Translations under genes and position numbers: made by a program
Shown: positions 24,846 to 30,338 of the stretch, piece after piece
Numbering within the stretch: the first letter of the stretch is position 1
Layout: the number at the start of each line of letters is the position of its first letter
The notes under the pieces: model-generated
What the model was told of the DNA's origin: nothing
Databases searched by the model: none
The model's input: only the letters and a program-made list of their open reading frames with translations
DNA from: an uncultured Kiloniellaceae bacterium
GTDB taxonomy: Bacteria; Pseudomonadota; Alphaproteobacteria; Kiloniellales; Kiloniellaceae
DNA length: 64,000 bases
NCBI GenBank assembly: GCA_947493695.1
Contig: CANLSF010000005.1
Location: 310,001-374,000 of the forward strand
Direction: 5' to 3'

Positions 24846-25136
24846 TTAGTTGGTTTTAGCCGCACATGGGTTGCACGGGTTCTTTGCAGCACAAGGATTG
24901 CATGGGTTGCATGGGTTCTTGGCGGCGCAAGGGTTGCAGGCTTTCTTAGCTGCACAAGGGTTGCAAGGGTTGCAAGCCTTCTTAGCAGCGCAAGGCGAAC
25001 AGCCAGCATAAGCAGCTTTCGGAAGAGCGGTTACGCCTGCAGCCATGCTGCCGAGGCCAACAGCCAGTCCGAGCATTACAGGAATAATGGTGGTGGAGGA
25101 CAGAAGCCGTCCCTTGTGTGAAGTCTTGTTGTTCAT
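24846..25136 (-). CDS. Small exported CNPC-repeat protein
   Basis: The 96-residue protein has an N-terminal export signal (residues about 10-45, TTIIPVMLGLAVGLGSMAAG, possible cleavage after AYA) and a mature part of about 50 residues made almost only of Cys, Asn, Pro, Ala and Lys. Cys-Asn-Pro-Cys turns are linked by Ala-Ala-Lys. I count 12 cysteines, spaced mostly three or six residues apart. It shares its leader pattern (T-T-x-I-P-x-x-L-G-L-A-V-G, then VTALP) with the CNPC-P460 protein at 29127-30338, so the two are paralogues. AAGGAG precedes the ATG and a terminator follows. Metal or haem-related thiol chemistry is plausible but unproven. I know no named family. Confidence 0.82.
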   Translation of the reverse strand: MNNKTSHKGRLLSSTTIIPVMLGLAVGLGSMAAGVTALPKAAYAGCSPCAAKKACNPCNPCAAKKACNPCAAKNPCNPCNPCAAKNPCNPCAAKTN

Positions 25137-25409: not shown

Positions 25410-25886
25410 ATGCGTTGGATCCTTCCAATGGCCCTCGCCTCACTCGTCTGTTACATCGCCTCATCAAACGACCTTCAGGCTGCACCCGCCTCCCCTCACA
25501 GCGGCGTTAAGCTTGTCGAAACCAAGATTCCCTTCGATAGCTTTACCGGGCGGCTGACCAGCGCGATCTCCGAGAATAAGATGGGTTTAGTGGCGCAGGC
25601 TTGTGCCAATTGTGGGGCGAAGTCGATTGGCGTCACGATTCCGGGCAATCGGGTCTTCATGATCTTTCGCCCGGACTTTGCGGTCCGGATGCTCGCTGCC
25701 AGCGAAGCCGCGGGGGTTGAAGCACCGATCAGACTCTATGTCACAGAACAACCCGACGGCACAGCCCGTTTGAGCTACCGCCTGCCCAGCCACACATTCG
25801 GAGCCTATGAGGTCGCGGAGCTCGATAAGCTCGGAGCCGAATTGGACGTCATCGTGGCACAGATCGTAGAAGACGCTCTGCAATAG
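25410..25886 (+). CDS. DUF302 domain-containing exported protein
   Basis: The 158-residue protein has a signal peptide (MALASLVCYIASSNDLQAAP) followed by a DUF302 fold. The family pattern is visible from FDSFTGRLTSAISENKMGLV through NRVFMIFRPDFAVRMLAASE to APIRLYVTEQPDGTARLSYR. A Cys-Ala-Asn-Cys pair sits near residue 67. DUF302 proteins are small, often periplasmic, and frequently found near redox or sulfur genes; their activity is not established. GGAG lies seven bases before the ATG. The YeeE/YedE gene follows after 31 bases on the same strand, so they probably form an operon. Confidence 0.85.
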   Translation: MRWILPMALASLVCYIASSNDLQAAPASPHSGVKLVETKIPFDSFTGRLTSAISENKMGLVAQACANCGAKSIGVTIPGNRVFMIFRPDFAVRMLAASEAAGVEAPIRLYVTEQPDGTARLSYRLPSHTFGAYEVAELDKLGAELDVIVAQIVEDALQ

Positions 25887-25917: not shown

Positions 25918-27105
25918 ATGAGTGCTGTAGCTCATCCTTCATCCGATTTATCGCGTAGCCCCAACCCGGTGCAGGTAACCGCAGTTGCGGCAGCCCTGGC
26001 TGTGATTGCGGCTTTGGCGGTCGCCACCTCCATGATCAGCCTGAAGCAGCTCCTGCTGTTCGGGATAGGGATCGGGCTAGGCCTCTCGCTCTATCACGCA
26101 ACCTTTGGCTTCACCGGCGCATACCGGCGCGCGATGGTCGAGGCCGATATCTCGGGCGTCACCGCACAACTTATCATGCTGGCGGTCGCCGTTCTGCTCT
26201 TCGCGCCCGTTCTGGCGCAGGGAGAAGCCTTCGGTCACGGTGTTGGCGGGGCCGTCGCGCCGGTCAGCATTTCCATGGCGTTCGGCGCATTCCTTTTTGG
26301 GATCGGCATGCAGCTGGGCGGTTCTTGTGCATCGGGCACCCTCTTCGCGGCGGGCGGCGGCAGCCTCAGGACTTTACTGGTCCTGGTCTTCTTCTGTATC
26401 GGCGCCTTTTGGGGCAGCCTTGATCTGGCCTCCTGGTCGCGTCTTCCCGGCGTAGGCTCGGTATCCCTGAGCGAGGAGTTGGGCTGGGAGATCGCGCTCC
26501 CGCTTCAGCTTGGCCTGTTGGCCCTTATATACGGCGTCATGCGCCTGCTGGGCGGAAAGCAAAAACGCCCACTCTGGGATAGCGAAGGTTTCAATTGGCG
26601 CATACTTCTGCGGGGGCCCTGGCCTCTTTTGTTGTCAGCACTTTTGCTGGCCTTGTTTAACTGGCTGACCCTGCTGGTGGCCGGGCACCCCTGGTCCATC
26701 ACATGGGCCTTCTCGCTCTGGGCAGCGAAAGCCGCTGTCTTCGTGGGCTGGGATCCCGCTACGAGCGGTTTCTGGTCAGGTGGCTTTCAACAGGCAGCCC
26801 TGGAGCGCGGACTGCTGCACGATGTAACTTCAGTGATGAATTTCGGGATCGTTCTGGGAGCGTTTCTGGCCGCGGCGCTGGCCGGCCGCCTCGCAAAGCC
26901 AACGGGCATCCCCGTCCGCTCGCTGTCCGCCGCTGTCCTGGGCGGCCTGGTTATGGGCTACGGAGCGCGGTTGTCCTATGGCTGCAATATCGGCGCATTC
27001 TTCAGCGGCGTTGCCTCGACGAGCCTGCACGGCTGGGTCTGGATTCTCTGCGCGCTCCCGGGCAATTATCTCGGAGTCCGCCTCAGGCCGTTTTTCAGGC
27101 TGTGA
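25918..27105 (+). CDS. YeeE/YedE family (thiosulfate/sulfur) transporter
   Basis: The 395-residue membrane protein has about nine or ten helices. Both halves carry the conserved cysteine-glycine loops of the family: MQLGGSCASGTLFAAGGG and SYGCNIGAFFSGVASTSLHG. In characterised YeeE/TsuA these cysteines relay thiosulfate through the pore. The N-terminal tail is polar and cytoplasmic. It lies directly downstream of the DUF302 gene and between the two Cys-repeat loci, so import of a sulfur compound into a cluster rich in cysteine proteins is an attractive but unproven link. It converges with the DUF6969-like gene after about 30 bases. Confidence 0.9.
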   Translation: MSAVAHPSSDLSRSPNPVQVTAVAAALAVIAALAVATSMISLKQLLLFGIGIGLGLSLYHATFGFTGAYRRAMVEADISGVTAQLIMLAVAVLLFAPVLAQGEAFGHGVGGAVAPVSISMAFGAFLFGIGMQLGGSCASGTLFAAGGGSLRTLLVLVFFCIGAFWGSLDLASWSRLPGVGSVSLSEELGWEIALPLQLGLLALIYGVMRLLGGKQKRPLWDSEGFNWRILLRGPWPLLLSALLLALFNWLTLLVAGHPWSITWAFSLWAAKAAVFVGWDPATSGFWSGGFQQAALERGLLHDVTSVMNFGIVLGAFLAAALAGRLAKPTGIPVRSLSAAVLGGLVMGYGARLSYGCNIGAFFSGVASTSLHGWVWILCALPGNYLGVRLRPFFRL

Positions 27106-27137: not shown

Positions 27138-27887
27138 TCAGCCCCAGCTGCTGTTAAGAAACAAGTTCTCTTTAGGTGCCTCGGAGAGCGCTTTATGTAC
27201 GGCTTTGATCTGGTCATCGACTGAAATCTTGATACTGGAAGTCACTTCGAGATTCCGGTCCTCGTAAACGTCTTCCTTCGGATGATCCGCCTGCCACTTC
27301 TCGATTTCGGCGTCCCGCTGCCTCAGAAGCTCCTCAATTTGAGGACGGAACAAACGCACGATACCACTGATCCATTTGTTTGCCGCCAGGCAGGGGAAAG
27401 TATGATCGATCTCGAAGGCATCGAGCATCGCGATGACACTATCGGCAGAATAAAAGGTTTCGCCCGTCACCCAGCGATTGGTCGTGAAGAGTGCGATCGG
27501 GAAGCCCTGCTTATCCATCGAAATCGCGATGATATGAGCCAGCGCATCTTCACCTAAAGGCCGCGTTCCCTCACCCTCGTAAGGCGCCGGCCAGATACCG
27601 TTGGGAATTCCACCGGAGCGCAAGAAGGTATGGAAATGGCCATTCTCGCCGTCCGTGCCGCGGTGAGCGTGGTAGTAATACTGACTGAAGGTCTCCGCGT
27701 CATAGACATCACCGCTCGGATAGTGGTCCCATTCGTAGAAGGTGCCCTGGTTGGCAAGGACCTGACCAACAACGTTAGCCGAAGTCTTATTCAGAACCCT
27801 GTAAGCCTCGACAATCTCGCTACCGGCCTTGGACATGCCCTCCAGCTGCGCTTTGCTCAGGCCCGCGATCGTAGTGCTAACAGTCAT
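27138..27887 (-). CDS. DUF6969-like protein of unknown function
   Basis: The 249-residue soluble protein has no signal peptide. A striking aromatic and histidine-rich block occurs at about residues 50-85 (YEWDHYPSGDVYDAETFSQ, YYYHAHRG, EHGHFHTF-like ENGHFHTFLRSG). This pattern is what I recall of the DUF6969 family, and its His cluster looks like a metal site. No enzymatic role is known to me. It is transcribed away from the SNase-like gene (84-base gap, same strand) and may be the last gene of a minus-strand series. The family name is tentative; the gene itself is solid. Confidence 0.78.
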   Translation of the reverse strand: MTVSTTIAGLSKAQLEGMSKAGSEIVEAYRVLNKTSANVVGQVLANQGTFYEWDHYPSGDVYDAETFSQYYYHAHRGTDGENGHFHTFLRSGGIPNGIWPAPYEGEGTRPLGEDALAHIIAISMDKQGFPIALFTTNRWVTGETFYSADSVIAMLDAFEIDHTFPCLAANKWISGIVRLFRPQIEELLRQRDAEIEKWQADHPKEDVYEDRNLEVTSSIKISVDDQIKAVHKALSEAPKENLFLNSSWG

Positions 27888-27971: not shown

Positions 27972-28460
27972 TCACTTACCGGCCTCACCTTCATTCGCAC
28001 GCCATACCCAAGGCAGCGTGAACTGCCCTCGCCATAACGCTCGTTCTGCAGTCTGCGCCCCGGCCATCGCCGTCTTGTAGCGCTGCGGTGCATCTTCCAC
28101 TGCAACCGCCCATCCGGTGTGTGTCATTCCTTCGGCAAGATCGTAACCCGCCGCCCGGCACACACCAAGAACGTTACCGTTCTCTTGCTGAGACTCAAGA
28201 TCGCAAACCACCGATACGCCTGCAGTCAGGTCCATCAAAGCCGACTTGGCAATCAAACCGCAGTTGATCTCCTTCGTCGGCCAATTGCAGGTCTGTCCCA
28301 ACTCTGGCGCATCGACACCTAGCAGATCGATCTTCCGGCCTGCAACTTCAAGCGAATCACCATCAATGATACGTGAAGCACCGGTGATCGTCTCAGCCGA
28401 CACCGACGGAATGGCCAGCATAACCGAGGCTAAGACGGTTAACAGGGAAAGCTCTTTCAT
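27972..28460 (-). CDS. Exported thermonuclease-fold (SNase) protein lacking catalytic arginines
   Basis: The 162-residue protein has a signal peptide (MKELSLLTVLASVMLAI, cleavage near VSA) and an SNase OB-fold: RIIDGDSLEVAGRKIDLLGV, DAPELGQTC, then CRAAGYDLAEGMTHTGWA and LWRGQFTLPWVWR. The fold, DAPE acid and family cysteines are kept. At the first catalytic arginine (usual IRL.GIDAPE) the sequence has Asp in KIDLLGVDAPE. At the second (usual DRYGR) it has NGN. Both arginines essential in staphylococcal nuclease are thus replaced, suggesting a non-nuclease role. The ATG at 28460 has AAGGTG upstream and begins the signal peptide. It stands between the DUF6969-like and cytochrome c genes. Confidence 0.8.
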   Translation of the reverse strand: MKELSLLTVLASVMLAIPSVSAETITGASRIIDGDSLEVAGRKIDLLGVDAPELGQTCNWPTKEINCGLIAKSALMDLTAGVSVVCDLESQQENGNVLGVCRAAGYDLAEGMTHTGWAVAVEDAPQRYKTAMAGAQTAERALWRGQFTLPWVWRANEGEAGK

Positions 28461-28554
28461 CCTGATCACCTTGCAAAGCTCCACCCAGAAGCGATTTCAG
28501 GTCCCTGCCGAAGACTAAGGCACATGCTGTCGCATGCCGCCAAATCACCCGTTG

Positions 28555-28983
28555 CTATGATGTCTCTTTCAACAGGAACGCAATCAGATCATGGCGCTGG
28601 CCTTCTTTCTTCAAGCCAGGGAACGACATCTTGGTCTTGGGAACAAACTTTTTCGGCTTGGTGAGGAATTCGTCAAGAGTCGCTGCGGACCAGACCACAT
28701 CGGCAGCCTTCATGGCCTTTGAGTACTTGTAGCCTTCTAGCGTTCCCGAAGTTCGCCCAAAAACGCCTGTCAGATTTGGACCGATCCTGCCTTTACCCTT
28801 GCTGCCAACGACGTGGCAGACGAAGCACTTCTTGGCGACCTTCGCGCCTTTTTCCGGGTCACCTGTCCACTCAACCCCCTCCAGCGAAACCGGCTCGGCC
28901 TGAAGTCCGGAGATTGGTGTAATGGCGAGACAAGCAATCGCCGCCGCCTGACATAGTCCTTTAAACATCATCATTTTTCCCAT
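28555..28983 (-). CDS. Class I c-type cytochrome (cytochrome c2-like)
   Basis: The 142-residue protein has a signal peptide ending near GLQA-E and one haem site: CFVCH (Cys53, Cys56, His57), with Met119 in PKTKMSFPG as the sixth ligand. IGPNLTGVFGRTSG and YKYSKAMKAADVVWS are classic cytochrome c class I segments. It should be a periplasmic electron carrier. The ATG at 28983 is chosen; the longest frame begins inside the upstream terminator at 29042-29088. It follows the CNPC-P460 gene on the same strand but behind that terminator, so it has its own or a read-through transcript. It is a plausible electron partner of the P460 domain. Confidence 0.9.
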   Translation of the reverse strand: MGKMMMFKGLCQAAAIACLAITPISGLQAEPVSLEGVEWTGDPEKGAKVAKKCFVCHVVGSKGKGRIGPNLTGVFGRTSGTLEGYKYSKAMKAADVVWSAATLDEFLTKPKKFVPKTKMSFPGLKKEGQRHDLIAFLLKETS

Positions 28984-29041
28984 CACTTTCAACACAGTGA
29001 CTTGATTTCTTAACTTGAAACCAAAGTTCAAATCCGAGCCT

Positions 29042-29088
29042 GAAAAAAACGGGATATGCCGCCGCCAAAGCAACAACACATCCCGTTT
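29042..29088 (-). terminator. Rho-independent terminator of the CNPC-P460 gene
   Basis: Minus-strand stem AAACGGGAT/ATCCCGTTT (9 pairs, loop of about 24) runs straight into a further T run (seven T in all), then TCAGG. It begins 38 bases after the stop codon of the gene at 29127. Confidence 0.78.
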
Positions 29089-29126: not shown

Positions 29127-30338
29127 TTAGTTACCAGCAGTCCGCAGCTCTTCAGGCAGGAAGAACTGGAAATCCTGGTCATCGCCGACAGCGATGTGAC
29201 AGTCCTTACAGAAAGCGACACTGCCAGAGCCTTTACCACCGGTTACTCCGATGACCTGTCCGCTAGGCATCATCAGCGTGTAACGCCAATCGCCGCCATC
29301 CGCATCGAAACCAGTCGACATCTTTTCCATCAGGAAGAGTGGTCCCGGACTGACCCGTCCACCCGCAGAAACGGTGAAACTGTCTTTCGCCAGGATCGAT
29401 CCGACCGGCATCGTACCGCCGTCTTCGAACTTGCTGTATTCCGACTTGGCAACATCGTTTGAGAAGTTGTTTACAAGACGACCGCCGTGGGTGTCCGAGG
29501 TGTAGGAAATCTTCGAGAAACGAGGCCAGTCCTTATAGGCCACGGCGCTCGGATTGCCTGACTTAGCGTAACCGGCAACCATTTCATCGATGATGCAGTC
29601 ATAAACCCGCATCATTTCGGAACCCGTCAGCTCCGCAGAGCCCGAAGCTGCCGCACAAGGATTGCACGGGTTGCAGGGGTTACACGGATTGCACGGATTG
29701 GCTGCTGCGCAGGGGTTTGCTGCCGCACAGGGATTGCACGGATTCTTGGCTGCACAAGGATTACAAGGATTGCAGGCCTTAGCCGCACAAGGATTACAGG
29801 GATTACATGCCTTTGCCGCACAGGGGTTGCACGGGTTCTTAGCTGCGCAGGGATTGCAAGGATTGCACGCCTTTGCCGCGCAAGGATTGCAGGGGTTGCA
29901 GGCCTTTTTTGCTGCACAGGGATTCGCAGCCGCTAAGCGCGGAACGATGCAGCGTGCGGATACGCCACCGGCTGCTCCAGCTGCACAAGGATTGCAGGGA
30001 TTGCAAGGGTTACAGGCGTTCGCTGCACAGGGATTGCACGGATTACAAGGATTTGCCGCAGCGCAGGGGTTGCAGGGGTTCTTGGCTGCGCAAGGGTTAC
30101 ATGGGTTTTTCGCTGCACAGGGGTTGCATGGATTACACGCATTTTTGGCTGCGCAGGGGTTACATGGATTTGCCGCAGCGCAACTGGCAACAGCATGACC
30201 AGGCAGCGCCGTGACACTTACCGCAACTGCACCTACACCCACAGCCAATCCCAGGACGAGCGGTATCGCCGTGGTTGTGGTCAGCAGGTTGTCTTTTAGC
30301 CCGGTGATAATTCTCTCTCGAGATAGTCTGTCGCCCAT
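29127..30338 (-). CDS. CNPC-repeat protein fused to a cytochrome P460 domain
   Basis: The 403-residue protein has three parts. Residues about 1-52 are an export signal like that of the small paralogue ([20 protein letters not shown]). Residues 53-228 are a low-complexity array with about 41 cysteines, mostly as Cys-Asn-Pro-Cys turns joined by Ala-Ala-Lys or Lys-Ala, interrupted once at 121-140. Residues 240-403 are a cytochrome P460 domain with [11 protein letters not shown], the [11 protein letters not shown] and [13 protein letters not shown] blocks and a CKDCH haem-c site (377-381). P460 proteins oxidise hydroxylamine or bind NO; the activity here is unknown. The ATG at 30338 has a perfect AAGGAGGT; the longer frame from 30518 is rejected. 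The repeat array plus P460 fusion is unusual. Confidence 0.88.
29650..30185 (-). repeat. CNPC-encoding DNA repeat array inside the P460 fusion gene
   Basis: The DNA repeats short units of 9 to 21 bases encoding Cys-Asn-Pro-Cys and Ala-Ala-Lys. Copies vary at third codon positions, so the array is not a recent exact duplication and is held by selection on the protein. Its repetitiveness makes length variation between strains by slippage or recombination likely. Confidence 0.75.

Follow-up and report, generated by a model that had tools for sequence, protein, structure and literature searches.

An exported P460-type haem protein with a split CNPC cysteine array and a co-occurring cysteine pair in Alphaproteobacteria

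The window analysed in this work is a stretch of 64,000 nucleotides from an uncultured Kiloniellaceae bacterium. The open reading frame at positions 29127-30338 on the minus strand encodes 403 amino acids followed by a stop codon, and its product is an exported P460 haem protein with a split CNPC array. The ATG at 30338 is preceded in the window sequence by AAGGAGGTGG, which is a strong ribosome site. The protein contains 44 Cys in total, where 41 are located in residues 53-228 and the others are C248 and C377/C380 of CKDCH. The initial annotation had described an exported protein with a 41-Cys CNPC array over 176 residues followed by a P460 domain with CXXCH, and this description was borne out by the reading of the ORF and by the counts. 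The features of the gene and its neighbours are given below.

24849 to 25136, minus strand: satellite CNPC protein of 95 residues, exported, with a related N-terminus and without a haem domain (sequence)
25918 to 27105, plus strand: YedE/TsuA-type sulphur transporter (PF04143, E 7e-61)
27138 to 27887, minus strand: DUF6969 protein with invariant His, no signal sequence seen (PF22308, E 1e-81)
27972 to 28484, minus strand: exported thermonuclease-like (SNase) protein (PF00565)
28555 to 29079, minus strand: class I cytochrome c (c-550-like), the next gene downstream and a possible electron partner (PF00034, E 6e-9)
29127 to 30338, minus strand: coding sequence of the P460 haem protein with the split CNPC array, 403 residues (ORF, translation, and Pfam)
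30183 to 30338, minus strand: N-terminal signal sequence, residues 1-52, a hydrophobic stretch and then AVA-SC (by eye)
29985 to 30182, minus strand: N-terminal thiol arm, residues 53-118, 17 Cys (sequence count)
29925 to 29978, minus strand: middle anchor element, residues 121-138, which holds Cys130 (conservation and pLDDT)
29655 to 29918, minus strand: C-terminal thiol arm, residues 141-228, 23 Cys (sequence count)
29139 to 29633, minus strand: cytochrome P460/c'-beta fold domain, residues 236-400 (Pfam, AlphaFold, and Foldseek)
29595 to 29597, minus strand: Cys248, predicted partner of Cys130 (co-occurrence)
29385 to 29387, minus strand: Lys318, at the position of the P460 haem cross-link lysine (alignment and conservation)
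29325 to 29327, minus strand: Glu338, probable distal carboxylate position (two of three alignments, positions counted by hand)
29196 to 29210, minus strand: CKDCH haem c attachment site, residues 377-381 (sequence)

Alignment A1 was used to scan 84,980 species genomes, which gave 322 relatives. The best 80 of these 322 relatives are alphaproteobacterial or placed only as 'Proteobacteria', and the pattern search identified a fused ORF in 70 of them. The full fusion is present in all four genomes of the window's genus (the window genome counted). The signal-like N-terminal stretch also recurs in aligned relatives. The fusion of P460 and thiol array that had been noticed at the outset is real and conserved, with 96 array-bearing proteins among the 128 P460-domain proteins collected.

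The neighbour counts in this work refer to the 70 loci with the fused ORF, where the other 10 of the 80 scan loci were excluded, a few loci are cut by contig ends, and short contigs are counted as they stand. The c-550-like cytochrome of the window also matches NF043008 (E 3e-25, far under the family cut-off). A c550-like cytochrome is located within 4 kb of the fusion at 17 of the 70 loci, and it was not found beside the fusion at two of the three same-genus loci (L098-L100). The YedE-type transporter is near the fusion at 12 of the 70 loci, 10 of them within 4 kb, and an SNase-like gene is within 4 kb at 10 loci. Of the neighbours scanned in the window, none was recognised as a copper gene. 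Free CNPC ORFs were identified in 34 of the 80 scan loci. The window genome itself encodes CNPC proteins of three kinds, one of them with a lipobox-like LLSACASK, together with an array-less P460. A lipoprotein-like CNPC protein is encoded on a contig other than that of the window.

Several other genes were observed around the arrays. A DUF302 protein is encoded at 25410-25886 of the window. Its gene diverges from that of the small CNPC protein and lies upstream of the YedE-type transporter. Genes for cytochrome cd1 nitrite reductase (NirS, PF02239), NosR, and ApbE-like proteins are located within about 10 kb of the array P460 at L130, L135, L158, and L171, where each assignment was profile-tested at one locus and extended to the others by clustering. 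SufB (suf iron-sulphur operon, with an Rrf2 regulator in some) is encoded near the array P460 at L102, L104, L115, L139, L163, and L174, profile-tested at one locus and assigned at the remaining loci by clustering. An exported, weakly cupredoxin-like protein (LTQTPCQFLE ... YSCPLNPTP) is encoded between YedE and the FGE-like gene (see below) in several clusters; such ORFs are located at L126:8446-8961 and L136:8463-8993, and there are six related ORFs.

The Cys of the window array exhibit 24 spacings of three residues, 10 of six, four of five, one of 11, and one of 12. The regular spacing of 3 and 5-6 that had been reported for this array holds for 38 spacings, and the interruption (the middle element) that the 11 and the 12 flank had been missed. 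The array contains 24 CNPC units, compared to a mean of 0.36 and a maximum of 4 in 2000 shuffles of its own residues. Those 24 identical peptides are encoded by 14 different DNA strings, where codon positions 1 and 2 are invariant and position 3 differs in 49-66% of pairs. Fixed first and second positions together with a varying third position point to purifying selection on the array as protein rather than to recent DNA duplication alone.

The arrays of the 89 proteins that contain the middle element consist of 10-89 Cys (median 39), and the medians of the two arms, whose boundaries were set by a fixed rule, are 17 and 19 Cys. CxxC is the commonest spacing and accounts for 60% of spacings in those 89 proteins. 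The composition of 96 arms is 19.8% Cys, 9.3% Lys+Arg, 1.4% Asp+Glu, and 0.8% F+W+Y. A strict three-residue Cys ladder with one Cys per polyproline-II turn was considered and rejected. Multiples of three make up 35 of the 40 spacings in the window protein and 80% in the 89 proteins, and no fixed Cys register is claimed because spacings of 4 and 5 are frequent. In the AlphaFold model of the whole window protein, built with 54 aligned sequences, the pLDDT by block is 78 for residues 121-130, 90 for 131-140, 55 for 141-150, and below 50 for the remaining array. This mostly low pLDDT outside the middle element does not support the 'solenoid-like' array of the initial annotation. No family in Pfam or NCBIfam matched the array of the window protein, and no metallothionein family in either database matched the window proteins at E up to 1. 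The sole Pfam hit of the 95-residue CNPC protein (E 0.12) is below cut-off.

The P460/c'-beta fold of the window domain was confirmed on the predicted structure. The domain exhibits block means of pLDDT that are mostly 87-98, and the Foldseek search with the AlphaFold model ranked c'-beta and P460 structures first (cytochrome c'-beta 7s5o, E 1.8e-5; P460 2je2, E 1.1e-3). PF16694 (Cytochrome_P460) matches residues 268-390 at E 1.4e-5 and 25.9 bits, which is below the curated cut-off of 27. Profile A5, which combines array-bearing and array-less P460 domains, recovers 7s5o (E 1.7e-4) and P460 8gar (E 0.42). No P460 was retrieved from the PDB by sequence when the query was the isolated P460 domain (E up to 1) or profile A3, and the broader A5 was required.

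In the A5 alignment, K318 corresponds to chain position 96 of 8gar (N. europaea P460) through a weak match (E 0.42), and its column is occupied by Met in N. europaea c'-beta (E 1.7e-4) and by Phe in Thermus c'-beta (E 0.2). Subtraction of 26 from the 8gar count, with offsets counted by hand, places K318 at NeP460 Lys70 and the next aligned Glu at Glu96. The same hand-counted offsets place the K318 column at NeCP-beta Met79 and TtCP-beta Phe61, and these two residues are given in the cross-link row of Table 2 in the available portion of PMC11928373. E338 aligns with NeP460 Glu96 and TtCP-beta Gly82, and the NeCP-beta alignment does not fit (two of three alignments, hand count). Lys318 is kept in 127 of the 128 P460-domain proteins and Lys339 in all 128. 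Lys318 matches, on these alignments, the haem cross-link lysine position of true P460s and Glu338 is probably the distal carboxylate position, by which the domain looks like the cross-linked P460 type rather than c'-beta.

The middle element exhibits the consensus GGxxSxxCxVPRL and splits the array in 89 of the 96 array-bearing P460 proteins. Its Cys130 and Pro133 are invariant in the first 16 fused proteins that were aligned. Cys248 is located in the first helix of the P460 domain. The array, the middle element, and Cys248 are all present in 89 of the 128 P460-domain proteins and all absent in 32; five contain the array without the other two. Two proteins (L164 and L175) contain the array and Cys248 and lack the middle element. 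The sequence of L175 is truncated at the start of its contig. A frame break is located in the N-terminal part of L164, and the middle element was found in none of its frames, so this protein is possibly a true exception to the Cys130-Cys248 pairing.

The domain tree was constructed using FastTree with the Cys248 column excluded, and some of its branch supports are low. The tree exhibits five changes of Cys248 and seven changes of the middle element. As read from the printed clades, the changes of Cys248 are located at L148, L176, the clade of L224, L232, and L238, the array-less genus g4, and the array-less tandem paralogues. Each of them coincides with a change of the middle element, and the two extra changes of the middle element are L164 and L175. 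The proteins of L224 (3203-4162), L232 (4299-5210), and L238 (4061-4975), which have neither the middle element nor Cys248, exhibit a second CNPC array inside the P460 domain right before GPLFxMEK. We read this in-domain array as a possible alternative way of holding thiols at the domain. Because Cys130 and Cys248 co-occur and AlphaFold orders hardly anything in the array but the middle element, the best reading of the pair is a predicted Cys130-Cys248 disulfide that would dock the middle of the array on the P460 domain and leave two flexible arms.

Among 61 genomes of the order, 33 contain the exact DNA pattern for CNPCNPC[AG], whose reversed-pattern control gave 0 among the matches listed. 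The pattern was also identified in 34 of 385 genomes sampled evenly across the class and in 6 of 398 genomes sampled from the phylum. The six hits of the phylum sample consist of the window's genome (G000), a small array protein (G026), a real array on a different domain (G627), and chance matches outside arrays (G217, G766, and G751). In the genus g4, which belongs to the same family as the window genome, 8 of the 9 genomes contain the P460 domain, and these domains group with those of the window's genus on the tree (support 0.85). None of the nine genomes yielded an array, the middle element, Cys248, the FGE-like protein, or DUF6969. A random absence of the array among homologues, which the initial annotation had named as a refuting case, is not what was observed; in g4 all five are missing together.

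An FGE-like protein (PF03781) with a signal or lipoprotein sequence (by eye) is encoded within 4 kb of the fusion at 39 of the 70 loci. Its motif GGSWDD-x-GCG[VI]C is invariant in 36 aligned sequences, where 4 of 40 ORFs had been dropped by length. The gene in the window genome (PF03781, E 8e-45) is located 50 kb from the fusion and outside the window. The nearest solved structures are ToxD (the best PDB match), CalU17, OvsA, SUMF2, and FGE. Among the 61 genomes of the order, 30 contain both the array pattern and the FGE-like protein, three the array only, four the FGE-like protein only, and 24 neither. The corresponding numbers for the 385 genomes of the class, where the FGE-like match threshold was E up to 1e-50, are 20, 14, 12, and 339 (Fisher p 1.6e-16, kinship ignored). 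By the places listed, 15 of the 20 class genomes with both encode the array and the FGE-like protein within 2.5 kb.

The array stretches were examined in 13 of the 14 class genomes with the array pattern and without an FGE-like match. Nine of them contain a P460 fusion (G118, G156, G164, G197, G322, G353, G394, G398, and G430), three contain haem-free array proteins only in the stretch examined (G226, G358, and G435), and one is a chance match (G217). Because these nine of 13 genomes keep the P460 fusion without it, the FGE-like protein is a frequent but dispensable partner. DUF6969 is encoded within 4 kb of the fusion at 40 of the 70 loci. Its distribution is wider than that of the FGE-like protein: it is present in 46 of the 61 order genomes, namely in 33 of the 34 with the FGE-like protein versus 13 of the 27 without it. 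Its invariant His are H55, H73, H75, H84, H86, and H118. The AlphaFold model of DUF6969 is confident (pLDDT 88.7) and exhibits no PDB fold match better than E 1.0; on this model, DUF6969 possibly represents an undescribed metalloenzyme fold.

A second fusion was identified in family f194, which belongs to another class of the phylum. Its arrays are of the NPCNPC[AS]MKKH type and are fused to SoxA/TsdA-type cytochrome c (L245 and L248-L277), where the SoxA/TsdA-type domain was assigned by PF21342 (E 3e-14, one protein tested). The search with the SoxA/TsdA fusion protein gave matches in 42 of the 74 f194 genomes, some of them array-only. An array and CxxCH are encoded in all 30 f194 loci fetched, and a separate small array ORF is present in 16 of the 30. 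The f194 arms consist of 17.8% Cys, 13.2% Met, 4.3% His, and 13.3% Lys. In eight f194 stretches, for which the family names come from tests on two stretches and from clustering for the rest, a multihaem-type cytochrome is encoded in all eight, an arsM-type gene in five, and an arsS-type gene in four. The FGE-like motif is absent from these eight stretches. A CusA/CzcA-type efflux pump is encoded next to the SoxA/TsdA-type array at L278.

We propose, with a probability of about 50%, that the window protein is a periplasmic P460 with two disulfide-anchored, metallothionein-like arms that store a soft metal beside a redox haem, accompanied by satellites and an FGE-like partner. The protein would be exported, its haem would be attached at CKDCH, the lysine cross-link would form at Lys318, and the middle element CxVPRL would be pinned by a disulfide between Cys130 and Cys248 of the domain's first helix. 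We infer these steps from sequence, homology, and covariation. The two thiol arms (17 and 23 Cys) would serve as a store or shield with many binding sites for a soft metal, most likely Cu(I), as suggested by the arm composition and by the second family f194. The P460 haem (c-type, with the Lys318 cross-link and Glu338 as distal base) may perform nitrogen-oxide or hydroxylamine redox chemistry beside this store; the oxidation of hydroxylamine by P460 haem proteins gives NO and/or N2O (PMC11928373). The free CNPC proteins would be satellites that share the ligand code. The FGE-fold CGxC protein would be a frequent partner in the envelope, where it would either exchange copper with the arms or modify the arm thiols; real FGE has a bis-thiolate Cu(I) site (PMC12123546). 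The disulfide itself, metal binding, the identity of the metal, the reaction of the haem, and the role of the partner are predictions of this scheme.

Judged from their sequence, the arms are most likely a metallothionein-like copper thiol store tethered to the P460 haem. A metal, and copper in particular, is preferred over pure thiol redox mainly because the f194 arrays add Met and His. The neighbours that also suggest sulphur (YedE), arsenic (arsM and arsS by the SoxA-type arrays), and denitrification (NirS and NosR at four loci) count against the copper-store reading, as does the lack of a recognised copper gene in the part of the window neighbourhood that was scanned.

The alternative that survives best, which we still consider unlikely, is a thiol redox or NO/sulphur buffer. 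The CxxC pairs would switch reversibly between the dithiol and disulfide states or would carry nitrosothiol or persulfide, and they would exchange electrons or NO with the P460 haem and a cytochrome c. The predominance of CxxC spacings (60% in the 89 proteins), the c550-like cytochromes at 17 and the YedE-type transporters at 12 of the 70 loci, the NirS-, NosR-, and ApbE-like genes within about 10 kb at L130, L135, L158, and L171, and the membership of the SoxA/TsdA domain in a thiosulfate-enzyme family are all consistent with such a buffer. However, the Met and His of the second array family do not serve thiol redox, and the sulphur or denitrification genes are linked to the fusion in a minority of loci.

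A modified array is less probable still. The FGE-fold partner would oxidise the Cys of the C-N-P units, with DUF6969 as a second modifier, and the mature arm would then not consist of plain thiols. The FGE-like protein co-occurs with the arrays and often abuts them, all 36 aligned sequences share its CG[VI]C, and DUF6969 tracks it among the order genomes (33 of 34 versus 13 of 27). Real FGE converts Cys within CXPXR (PMC4505483 and PMC12123546), and each of the 24 CNPC units of the window protein contains CxP, the first half of CXPXR. However, the CNPC units have no Arg at +4, and the partner's Cys pair is three apart compared to five for the active-site cysteines Cys336/Cys341 of FGE (PMC4505483, available portion). 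The P460 fusions also persist in 9 of the 13 array-positive genomes without the FGE-like protein, and the FGE fold has many other functions, with ToxD as the best PDB match here.

An envelope scaffold is improbable. Disulfides or shared metal would link the arrays of P460, of the small exported proteins, and of the lipoprotein-like proteins into a matrix by which P460 is kept at the membrane. The three kinds of CNPC protein in one genome, one of them with the lipobox-like LLSACASK, would agree with such a scaffold, as would an array size range of 10-89 Cys that a matrix could tolerate. However, no surface or adhesion genes were recognised among the neighbours scanned, and a matrix would not need the conserved middle anchor. 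The reading of the array as a functionless low-complexity expansion of a P460 linker, which the wide variation of array length among relatives might suggest, is already disfavoured as highly improbable by the frozen codon positions 1 and 2 beside a drifting position 3 and by the retention of the middle element in 89 of 96 arrays.

The copper-store reading may be extended to a broader and more tentative proposal, which we hold as doubtful. The NPC arrays would be an undescribed modular envelope thiol scaffold on unrelated haem c domains (P460 and SoxA/TsdA) in separate classes, fixed on the P460 domain through a dedicated Cys-Cys anchor or through insertion into that domain, where an FGE-fold CGxC copper protein would often load or rewrite the CNP cysteines. 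A haem enzyme would thereby stand beside a copper cluster of 20-90 thiolates. The recurrence of NPC arrays on an unrelated cytochrome c suggests a general, unnamed envelope module. A widespread P460 branch attaches about 10 to 90 Cys to the domain and keeps a Cys-Cys pair whose apparent purpose is to hold them. This implies that a P460-type haem is coupled to a reservoir of thiols or metal, for which we found no counterpart among the characterised P460s, and the paired losses of the anchor and Cys248 provide a ready-made genetic test.

The literature search found no publication on a cysteine-rich P460. The searches for CNPC or CNPCNPC-like strings and for bufferin and arsenosugar literature gave nothing on point among the matches listed. 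A description of P460 with an anchored Cys array was thus not found in the literature searched, and the NPC array may well be a separate module.

Metallothioneins are rich in Cys (about 20%) and Lys and contain hardly any acidic or aromatic residues, and the composition of the arms is similar. Unlike metallothioneins, the window array is exported, exhibits an Asn-Pro-Cys code, and is fused to a haem domain, with metal binding that is putative. Copper storage proteins (Csp) also use many Cys for Cu(I), as described in the available portion of PMC5171941. They are four-helix bundles with Cys in the core, whereas the window arm is predicted to be disordered. The FGE-like partner belongs to PF03781 like the SUMF1/FGE-fold enzymes (FGE, EgtB, OvoA, PvdO, and ToxD). 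Its two Cys are located in the C-terminal GGSW loop, at what we take to be the site of FGE's own pair. The partner differs from FGE in its CGxC, where the Cys are three apart instead of the five of Cys336/Cys341.

Cytochrome P460 (N. europaea NeP460 and M. capsulatus McP460) and the window family have in common the fold, CXXCH, and the cross-link Lys position (K318). E338 is a probable match to the distal carboxylate in two of three alignments, and the identity to the P460 structures found is about 15-16%. The available portion of the P460 review PMC11928373 contains 'cysteine' once (the haem Cys), does not contain 'fusion' or 'N-terminal', and makes no mention of the exported two-arm Cys array, the middle anchor, and Cys248 that distinguish the window family. 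The closest structures by Foldseek are those of cytochrome c'-beta (7s5o and 6hih, 17-19% identity), which differs in that it has Met or Phe (Table 2 in the same portion of PMC11928373) where the window family exhibits Lys318.
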